Source of the DNA: Cololabis saira
Taxonomy: Eukaryota; Chordata; Actinopteri; Beloniformes; Belonidae
Direction of reading: 5' to 3'
Assembly: GCF_033807715.1 (NCBI RefSeq)
Contig: NC_084596.1
Coordinates: 40,503,958-40,567,957 of the forward strand
DNA: 64,000 nt
The position numbers and the translations under genes were made by a program. The notes beneath the pieces were generated by a model that was not told the origin of the DNA, made no database searches, and worked only from the letters and a program-made list of their open reading frames with translations. This document shows, piece after piece, positions 1,078-33,614 of the stretch. Position 1 is the first letter of the stretch. The number at the start of each line of letters is the position of its first letter.

Positions 1078-21384
<20,307 letters not shown>

Positions 21385-28770: not shown

Positions 28771-28821
28771 AGAAAATAAAAAGCCATCATCAATGGAGCC
28801 CTGATACAACGATTCACCATG

Positions 28822-29715
28822 TAAACCCTTCAGGAATCCGCGATTCCGTGATCGCGGAATTTTTCGCGGATTTCACGGCTGTCCGTGGATTTACAGACCT
28901 TCCGTGGATTTCAATGTCTGGTGCAGAAAAATCACTTTTACTGGGGTTAATATTGCATATGTCCGCGCTGAATATGCAAATTATGCGGGGCTCGCTTGAT
29001 TTCACCGCATCATCGCCGACATTTTCGCATAAAGTTTGGAAAAAGGGGGGAGTGTTGTGAGTGACATATCGGGACGCCCGGTCGCGACGTGCGGGACCCG
29101 CCCGGGGACCTCCGCACCGCTCGCAGAAACCGCCACCCCCCAAACAGCAGCTCTCACCCGCGGGGGTGAGAGGAAAAAGAGAGTCTCCCCGCTTGCGCGG
29201 TGGGCGCGGCTGCCGGTGGACTCAGGTCTCCGCGCTGACCGCGTACCACTGCGCCTGCGAGGGCCGGCAGAGGCGGACGCACGTTCCCATCCACTTGGGG
29301 GATAGTGGCGGCGGACGCGTGGGGGGGGTGACGGAGCTCTGTCTCGTCCCCCTCGTCGCGCCGGTGCGCCCGGCAATCACCCGAGCACCGAGCCGCGGGT
29401 GGAGAGGAGAGAGGCGGCCGGTCGCGTCTCTCCTCTCCACCCGCGCTCTCCTTTTTTTTCTCTTACGACCTCAGATCAGACGACCCGCTGAATTTAAGAG
29501 GGAAGAGCTCAGCGCCGAATCTGCAACTTCCTGCATATTTCGCATATTTTGCAACTTTCCGCCCTATTCCGCAACTTACAGCATATTCCGCAATTTCACC
29601 GCATAAAAGCACATAAAAAACCCGCACCCGCGGAATCAAGGATTTTAGTCCGCGGAATCAAAGATTTTAGTCCGCGGAATCAAGGATTTTTGCCCGCGTT
29701 TTTCTGGAGGGTCTA
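28822..29715. mobile_element. MITE that has captured ribosomal DNA
   Basis: Termini TAAACCCTTCAGGAATCCGC and, inverted, TAGACCCTCCAGAAAAACGC. Flanks ACCATG on both sides (28816-28821, 29716-29721), a 6-bp candidate TSD. Subterminal repeats of CCGCGGAATCAAGGATTTT. The middle holds ITS2-like and 28S sequence unlike the AT-rich ends. Confidence 0.7.
29070..29498 (+). rRNA. Captured ITS2 / 28S rRNA 5'-end fragment (non-functional)
   Basis: 29466-29498 reads CGACCTCAGATCAGACGACC then CGCTGAATTTAAG, the start of vertebrate 28S rRNA with a five-base deletion (one GACGA lost). The 400 bp before it are very GC-rich with CCGCGGGTGGAGAGG-type runs, as expected of ITS2. Only about 33 bp of 28S are present, so it is not a working gene. 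Confidence 0.78.
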
Positions 29716-29836
29716 ACCATGGCAACCGGCGACAGCAAAAGATCCACATACTTTTACTTTTCTTTTTTTTTACTTTATTTAACATTTACGGAGCCTGTGA
29801 AGGATCATGCAATATATTTTTAATGTTGACAGAATC

Positions 29837-31790: not shown

Positions 31791-32134
31791 TTATACATCA
31801 TTTCCCCTTCGTAGAGTCATTCTTGTTGAAGAGCCTTCATGACTTCTTTCTGAGGAGCTCTCATCTGAAGAATCGGGTTTAAAAGTTCTCACAAGTATGA
31901 AGGTCCTTCTCTTTTTTCTCCCCTTACTTTCTGGACAAGTGATTTCAGTAGGAGGAACGTCATTAGACGTGCTTGCTATTCCTGAGGCTGTTTCATCTTC
32001 TGTCTTTATTTTTGAAGAAGAGGAAATCTCTGTTATAGGAACATTAGACGTGCTTGCTATTGCTGCTGTTTCATCTTTTGTCATTTCAATCACTGAACAA
32101 GAGATCTCAGTAGTTGGAACATGCCCAGAACCGC

Positions 32135-32175
<41 letters not shown>

Positions 32176-33350
32176 CAAGTTGCCAAGTTCTTTTCCTCTT
32201 TCCTCTTTCCTCTTCGGAAAAAGAACTTGAGGTTCAAGCTCTTTTTCCGTGGGATACCCTGGATTCTGCGCCGAGAAATTAGACTGCGACGTATTTTTTG
32301 GCGAGAGCTTCCGTCACAAGTTCTAATTCTTTTTCGCGGTGGAATGGCCTTGCGGATCCTGTACGGCGCCATCTCCACGTCATCCTCCAGTTTTCTTTTC
32401 TCTCCTCTTTTTGTGCTGCTTGTACAGCTTGTCTTTGCTGGCAATAGCAAGCACTGGGGTGGCTCTTGACTGGTTTGTGAATTTGGGGAAATGCTGATGG
32501 CCATCAAACCATAGGAAGATTGTACATATGAACCGTCATGAAAAAGCCCCATCAGATGATCCATTGTAATAAAAGGATGCTGCAAAACCTGGCTGGGAGT
32601 GATTCTTTCAGCAGGATCGAGCTTTAACATCTGCTTGACCAGGTCCATAAAGTTCTCCAGATCTGCCTTTTCTGCCATGGCGTCTACTTCGGGCTGATGA
32701 CTGCTGACCATCAGCTGAAATACCATATTTTCCAGGGAACTAATCCTAAACATCATCAGTGAGTTGATCCCATACTCTTCTGGGGTCTTGAGTGTCCACT
32801 GGTTTGGACAGGTAGGAGGTGAGGTGAGGTAAAACTCAAGTGTTTTGGGAGCAGCCCTTAGGAGACGCTCAGGAAGATGACCAAGAGTTCTTGTTAGATT
32901 CCAGATCACTTCATAATCAAAACGCCCAGAGTTAAGTTCAAATCCCAGACACAGTTCCGCTGTAATGCAGCCCAGGGACCAAATGTTAGTTGTCCCTTCA
33001 CAGGGGAGACCCAGAATTGTCTCTGGAGCTCTGTACCCCCAGTTCCATGTCTGTGAGCTCAAATTTGGGCAAGCATAGTTGAAGTCCAAAAGCTCTGCCT
33101 TAAATGGATGGCGTACGTGATCCACCAGTTGAATACTCTTGGGTGCAACAGCAATATGAGCTATCCCTGAATTCTGAAGGACGCTCAGAGATGTTGCCAC
33201 GTGGTATAAAAGTGGCCGTATTTCTTTCAGCTGGAAGCAGGACGAGTTCCTGCTATCCATCAAGTCCTTTAAGCTGATTCTCATGTTTCTTCTGTATGTG
33301 ATGTTTGCACTGTCAGCACCAAACGTGATATGACTGTCTGAGAGTTCCAC
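31791..33350 (-). CDS. HIPK-like predicted pseudokinase, intronless, 5' end unclear
   Basis: About 519 codons open without interruption. Residues about 35-300 align with the C-lobe of homeodomain-interacting protein kinases (IRPLLYHVATSLSVLQ, YRAPETILGLPCEG, WSLGCITAELCLGFELNSG, LKLDPAERITPSQVLQHPFI). The catalytic loop HADLKPEN of HIPKs is HIAVAPKS here, losing the catalytic Asp, Lys and Asn, and DFG is DFN, so phosphotransfer is unlikely. The N-lobe (Gly loop, VAIK) is absent. The C-terminal half is basic, with 13 Gln (32135-32173) and Arg/Lys clusters resembling nuclear localisation signals. There is no ATG at the 5' limit: the first in-frame ATG is at 33284 and an in-frame TGA lies upstream near 33380. 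It is therefore a truncated retrogene, or the 3' exon of a gene whose first exon I did not find. The family is often expanded in fish. Confidence 0.72.
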
Positions 33351-33614
33351 AGCAGTATATATGAGAGCTGTATTGCATCATCAAGGGGACTCATTGACAT
33401 CATAACGGAACTCTTGGGTTGCCATGGTGACAAAGCATTAGCCAGAGTGATTCGAATCACATGGACAAATATAAATTATTTTATTATGTTGATTAAAAAA
33501 AAACATTTGTTGTTGATAACAACTTGATGACATTTAAATCCAAGCTTTAAAACTGACTGAGTCATTGATCTTGACTCAACAGGCAAAACAAATGAATCAG
33601 AAAAAAAGCATTAA

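Follow-up and report, generated by a model that had tools for sequence, protein, structure and literature searches.

Ribosomal DNA from the ITS2/28S junction as cargo in several MITE families of Cololabis saira

The element in the window and the identity of its cargo

The stretch of DNA that we analyzed, referred to here as the window, comprises 64,000 nucleotides of Cololabis saira contig NC_084596.1 (positions 40,503,958 to 40,567,957, forward strand; assembly GCF_033807715.1). Window positions 28822-29715 are occupied by a MITE with TA..TA ends, which runs from TAAACCCTTCAG at 28822 to CTGGAGGGTCTA at 29715 and carries the 6-bp target site duplication (TSD) ACCATG on both sides. Its termini are TAAACCC...GGGTCTA, and its terminal inverted repeats (TIRs), aligned by eye, match at 16 of 21 positions. 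An earlier reading of the sequence alone had proposed a MITE with defined termini and 6-bp duplications, and this proposal is borne out. The features of the element, which we assign to a family termed A, are as follows (28S numbering follows that part of the family D consensus, described below, which derives from 28S).

28816..28821, no strand: left TSD ACCATG, 6 bp
28822..28842, plus strand: left TIR, beginning TAAACCCTTCAG (family A consensus TAGACCCTCCAGGAA)
28822..29067, plus strand: left transposon arm, non-rDNA; 28822-29061 is 98.75% like the family A consensus
29068..29465, plus strand: sequence of about 400 nt assigned to the 3' portion of ITS2; the left boundary is the start of similarity to the family B ITS2
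29394..29445, plus strand: ITS2 3'-terminal hairpin, with 26-nt arms that are 92% complementary and 0 nt between them
29466..29498, plus strand: 28S rRNA nt 1-38 minus 5 nt
29499..29521, plus strand: 28S rRNA nt 99-121, following a 60-nt deletion bridged at an AAG/AAG junction
29522..29715, plus strand: right transposon arm, with GCAACTT/CGCATA repeats
29628..29698, plus strand: right-arm tandem repeat with a 22-bp unit, whose copy number differs among family A copies
29695..29715, minus strand: right TIR, ending CTGGAGGGTCTA
29716..29721, no strand: right TSD ACCATG, 6 bp

The core of the element reaches a GC content of 0.745 (maximum over 200 bp) versus 0.405 for the whole window. The 28S start at 29466-29498 agrees with an rDNA contig (CAKZMA010001224.1, L002) and with the Rfam LSU consensus printed for that contig. 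It also agrees with the 28S start as it occurs in fish, given in PMC3637797 as a small RNA of stickleback listed under LSU rRNA. The earlier identification of the GC-rich part as ITS2 followed by 28S is supported, and its limits are revised: the rDNA extends over approximately 29068-29521 rather than 29060-29498. Rfam did not recognize the 28S piece of the window at the gathering score or at values up to E 10; the piece is short and contains deletions. The 27 permissive Rfam matches in the window were to miRNA models, nearly all of them on the ITS2 palindrome, and we judged them to be chance.

The consensus sequences of family A and of the three further families described below (B, C, and D) all match the 28S start of the reference contig (E values of 2e-8 for A, 1.5e-23 for B, 2e-15 for C, and 3e-31 for D). 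When 20 loci were tested with Rfam, LSU was recognized at the gathering score in 7, comprising all seven family D loci and none of the eight family B or five family C loci. Site 4a of the pre-rRNA is, we take it, located in ITS2. Family B and a further locus, L129, carry the motif AAGYGCAGAC immediately upstream of the point at which the ITS2 of family A begins, and a primer named "47S 4a" begins CTAAGCGCAGACC in the accessible part of PMC11084827; the likeness between the two ties the upstream part of the cargo to ITS2. On its contiguity with 28S and on the upstream motif in family B, we assign 29068-29465 to ITS2.

The reference contig, the sole match in a scan of genome contigs, is eukaryotic rDNA and served as a 28S reference only. 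It contains 18S, 5.8S, and the start of 28S by Rfam and is binned in a Coleofasciculus MAG; its presence in a cyanobacterial MAG is contamination of a public genome. Viral contigs scanned for the 28S stretch and for the terminus of the element gave 0 matches each. The sole viral match of an 18-base 28S-start pattern (L001) lies in coding-like sequence and was therefore attributed to chance.

Family A: copies, decay, and affinity

We searched the host assembly (1.146 Gb in 730 contigs) with the whole element. From 793 first-look candidates, 40 long copies were scored, and the 39 copies other than that in the window were fetched. ITS2-like sequence was found in all 40 copies read, and the 28S start in 37, the exceptions being L034, L045, and L049. 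The insert is thus a fixed part of the amplified family. As the query held the insert and 40 of the 793 candidates were scored, copies of family A that lack the insert may exist. The sequence-only reading had set the possibility of a native insert against its proposal of capture. This is half true, in that the insert belongs to every copy read; however, rDNA makes up the insert and not the arms, so that capture followed by amplification remains a valid reading.

Identical 6-bp TSDs flank 32 of the 35 copies for which both ends were found (three of these 32 lie in AT repeats and are little informative). The TSDs of L023 and L024 match only with a one-base shift and those of L040 do not match, and the right end could not be resolved in five of the 40 copies (L014, L037, L045, L046, and L048). 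The TSDs are varied in sequence and AT-rich. The consensus termini are TAGACCC..GGGTCTA versus TAAACCC..GGGTCTA in the window, and L021 starts TTGACCC. Copies diverge from the consensus by 1.3-5.2%, so the family looks young.

Among the 37 copies with a 28S start, 11 keep the 5 nt missing from it in the window, and the other 26 do not. A further family A copy, L097, retains the 28S stretch after nt 38 up to nt 121, less 7 nt; none of the 40 copies contains this stretch. The retention of the 5 nt in 11 copies and the longer stretch of L097 lead us to reconstruct a family A ancestor with contiguous ITS2 and the first ~121 nt of 28S, which subsequently decayed. The 1,208-bp copy L023 (G000:C9:46659416-46661023) has five additional matches to the right end of the query, where the 22-bp tandem lies.

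We compared the sequences of the 40 copies at non-CpG sites. Shared alleles were found at 3/197 sites of the left arm, 46/309 sites of ITS2 (including 11 arm bases), 2/45 sites of 28S, and 7/81 and 26/111 sites in two parts of the right arm. The contrast was smaller for singletons, at 0.50% per cell in the left arm and 0.83% in ITS2. All four allele combinations were present at 256 of 406 pairs of non-CpG sites in ITS2 and at 211 of 406 in the right arm, a pattern suggesting that alleles have been shuffled between family A copies, by exchange or partly by repeated mutation, and that this extends beyond the cargo. The high diversity of ITS2 led us to consider that MITE-borne ITS2 might exchange with the rDNA array, by analogy with the Pokey elements discussed below. 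Because the right arm is also diverse and shuffled and recurrent mutation is possible, the diversity of ITS2 is no proof of such exchange. The ITS2 hairpin of the family occurs as two haplotypes that differ on both arms together. In window-like copies the palindrome (29394-29445) is almost perfect, whereas in others it is imperfect, which resembles quasi-palindrome correction.

The termini and TSDs of family A resemble those of IS3EU/GingerRoot elements, whose marks are given as TA..TA termini and usually 6-bp TSDs in the excerpted text of PMC10045372. There are differences: neither a transposase nor an autonomous partner of family A was found; its consensus termini depart from the TAYGG..CCRTA ends of the fungal IS3EU set in the accessible part of PMC12730594; and those parts of PMC10045372 and PMC12730594 that were available make no mention of rDNA cargo. 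The sequence-only reading had suggested a speculative link with Dada transposons instead, and there are some likenesses, namely duplications of 6 or 7 bp (PMC8869645, in excerpt), a range that includes the TSD length of family A, occurrence in ray-finned fish, and contact with RNA genes. However, the same excerpt and that of PMC3706591 place Dada elements in small RNA genes (snRNA, tRNA, and 5S) and describe Dada-U6 and Dada-U1 as lacking TIRs, whereas family A has TIRs and TA..TA ends. RNA genes are the target of Dada, whereas in family A rDNA is the cargo. The varied, AT-rich TSDs of the copies and the absence of any Rfam match to an RNA gene in the window at the gathering score argue against insertion into small RNA genes. 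The Dada link is thus unsupported, and it is very hard to credit that the window contains a Dada-type element targeting RNA genes; judged by its ends and TSDs, family A would instead fit an IS3EU-like element.

Other MITE families that carry the same part of the rDNA

A 23-base pattern from the start of 28S (at most one mismatch) has 223 matches in the host genome, 96 forward and 127 reverse, and the reversed control pattern has 0. One hundred of the 223 places were listed, and 91 of these were read. By the similarity of their arms, 41 of the sites read belong to family C, 27 to B, 21 to D, and 1 to A, and one belongs to none of these; both arms of one family are present at 84 sites and one arm at 6. 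The only sequence that the four consensuses have in common is rDNA. As every family was found with a 28S-start query, every family contains the 28S start by construction.

The families differ in their TSDs. Identical 8-bp TSDs flank 18 of the 20 family B copies with both ends, and TIRs are present, so that we take this family to be hAT-like. Family C has identical 3-bp TSDs in 29 of 38 copies (many are TAA or TTA, and others occur), by which it is presumably PIF/Harbinger-like, with a TWA-like target. Family D has TTAA at both ends in 12 of 14 copies, and we regard it as a TTAA-type family, presumably piggyBac- or Kolobok-like. The one site without arms of families A to D, L129 (G000:C14:30411937-30413959), has arms that look hAT-like by eye (GATACCACTTTT.. 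and ..GGTATCAGACCGATG) and that enclose ITS2 sequence starting at the 4a-like motif and continuing into 28S, and it probably represents a fifth rDNA-carrying MITE family. Two family C copies 73 kb apart (L073 and L074, G000:C5:45047081 and 45119724) are 94% alike over ~1.5 kb that includes flanking sequence and look like one local duplication rather than two insertions.

In total, 130 MITE-borne copies were read, and the number would be ~260 if the unread sites are similar. Several MITE families thus contain rDNA cargo, and each has been amplified with it. The dispersal of copies with target duplications over many chromosomes led us to reject an assembly artefact.

The pieces carried by the families overlap and have different boundaries. 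On the left, as judged by eye, the rDNA of family B and of L129 begins just upstream of the 4a-like motif and that of family A directly after this motif; in families C and D, the base of the ITS2 terminal hairpin marks the start. On the 28S side, the cargo extends to nt 121 in family A, to nt 66 in the consensus of family B (with ~15-20 nt more in some copies), and to about nt 223 in family D; in family C it can be followed clearly to nt 49, after which it is degenerate. A long hairpin is present at the 3' end of ITS2 in all four consensuses and is shortest in D. That the boundaries differ by family speaks for several captures, and, as C and D begin at nearly the same point in ITS2, the captures in these two may not be independent.

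We also searched the host genome, again with at most one mismatch, with one pattern from 5.8S and one from the interior of 28S, and these found 0 matches versus 223 for the 28S start. Neither pattern reveals an rDNA unit in the assembly either; the assembly may be incomplete, and the control is therefore suggestive rather than decisive. An Rfam search for 5.8S (RF00002) also returned 0 matches in the host genome; as 39 of 30,047 candidates were scored, this result carries no weight, and the pattern search was used in its place. As far as these two other points of the rDNA go, the results suggest that dispersal is limited to the ITS2/28S junction.

Precedents and explanations for the capture

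Pack-type MITEs and transduplicates are non-autonomous elements that amplify captured host sequence. They differ from the present case in that the captured sequence here is multicopy rDNA and is common to several families. For rDNA as cargo, the closest precedent appears to be Pokey, a Daphnia element of the piggyBac superfamily, which was the only rDNA-carrying DNA transposon that we recognized in the literature covered (most subscription papers and Repbase lie outside that scope). According to the excerpted text of PMC3849761, Pokey carries 200-bp IGS repeats and a ~48-bp piece of ITS2, also when it lies outside the rDNA, and its IGS pieces seem to undergo concerted evolution with the rDNA; it has a TTAA target and inserts in 28S genes, and its MITEs (mPok) are without rDNA repeats. 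Pokey and the present elements are alike in being DNA transposons with pieces of rDNA spacer as cargo. Unlike Pokey, which on that description is a single superfamily, the carriers in the saury belong to four or five MITE families, with ITS2 and the start of 28S as cargo. Family A has 6-bp TSDs rather than TTAA. Pokey can be seen inserted in 28S genes, whereas the saury assembly shows no rDNA unit to inspect.

The data show the anatomy of the window element, the amplification of its family together with the cargo, and the presence of overlapping, differently bounded pieces in families B, C, and D. We consider it likely that the element is a copy of an amplified, non-autonomous IS3EU-like TIR family with the end of ITS2 and the start of 28S as its cargo, and that the pieces in the several families reflect repeated capture of one spot of the rDNA. 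As a mechanism, we tentatively propose template switching in gap repair, favored by the ITS2 palindrome. During the repair of excision gaps, a broken element would be filled in when synthesis switched template to the rDNA, which is very abundant, with a preference for the palindrome at the 3' end of ITS2, beside the poly-T and the start of 28S. The rDNA-filled deletion derivative, having kept its ends, would then be mobilized in trans by a transposase belonging to its superfamily, and gene conversion may subsequently have exchanged alleles among the cargo copies. It is conceivable, if on the doubtful side, that the 3'-terminal palindrome of ITS2 together with the 5' end of 28S is a hotspot for capture by DNA transposons, or is favored by selection as their cargo, and that four or five unrelated MITE families took it independently and scattered it while the 5.8S and interior-28S patterns remained undispersed. 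If so, left breakpoints near the presumed site-4a motif or the base of the hairpin would even be compatible with fragments from pre-rRNA processing having served as template. Any reason for a preference for this spot is our inference.

The preference itself would disappear if capture were random, with any part of the rDNA, the most abundant nuclear template, being taken and ITS2/28S being seen merely because it was the query. The design of the census, which began from the 28S start, leaves room for this, as do the restriction of the controls to two other rDNA points and an assembly in which rRNA-like stretches, like the rDNA unit itself, may be missing. The lack of matches to the 5.8S and 28S-interior patterns points the other way, as do the 28S stretches of at least 80 nt that are readable in family D, and we regard random capture as rather unlikely. 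An improbable alternative is that the rDNA was captured once and then passed between MITE families by recombination or by nested insertion of an rDNA-derived mobile unit. Families A and B share ITS2/28S sequence (90.7% over 439 nt of A), and the nearly equal starting points of C and D could be read in the same way. However, the outer boundaries differ on both sides, with B reaching further upstream in ITS2 and all four families ending at different points in 28S, the families share only rDNA at the junctions, and no nested insertion with its own target duplication or tail around the rDNA was noticed there by eye.

Selection on the cargo, by which the ITS2 hairpin or 28S start would aid the MITE (through small RNAs or piRNAs from the 28S 5' end, nucleolar location, or processing of hairpin RNA) and would have become fixed in several families, would account for the presence of this piece in several superfamilies. 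The stickleback 28S 5'-end small RNA, with medians of 74-171 reads per million, has a weak zebrafish piRNA match (E 0.0056) in the accessible part of PMC3637797, and shared non-CpG alleles are fewer per site in the 28S part of family A than in its ITS2. On the other hand, the 28S part decays in family A through the 60-nt and 5-nt deletions, and the left arm is equally uniform; selection of this kind seems to us quite unlikely.

If repeated capture of one spot is correct, the occurrence of the same piece of rDNA in several unrelated MITE families would provide a testable rule on which host sequences transposons take, and the rule would ask whether uptake is governed by fragility, RNA templating, or selection. 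In such fish, ITS2 barcoding and FISH mapping with rDNA probes could also be misled by the dispersed ITS2/28S copies, as could the assignment of small RNAs or piRNAs to the 28S 5' end.

Elsewhere in the window, an open reading frame on the minus strand at 20203-20691 resembles, from its translation, the start of a BED-finger/hAT transposase. A 528-aa open frame at 31791-33377, also on the minus strand, resembles a HIPK-like kinase and contains a poly-Q stretch; it may be a retrocopy or belong to a gene that has expanded in fish. Long tandem arrays rich in GA/CT lie at 2760-4110 and 17519-18302; the two have an 83-bp unit among their periods, are opposite in orientation, and look related.
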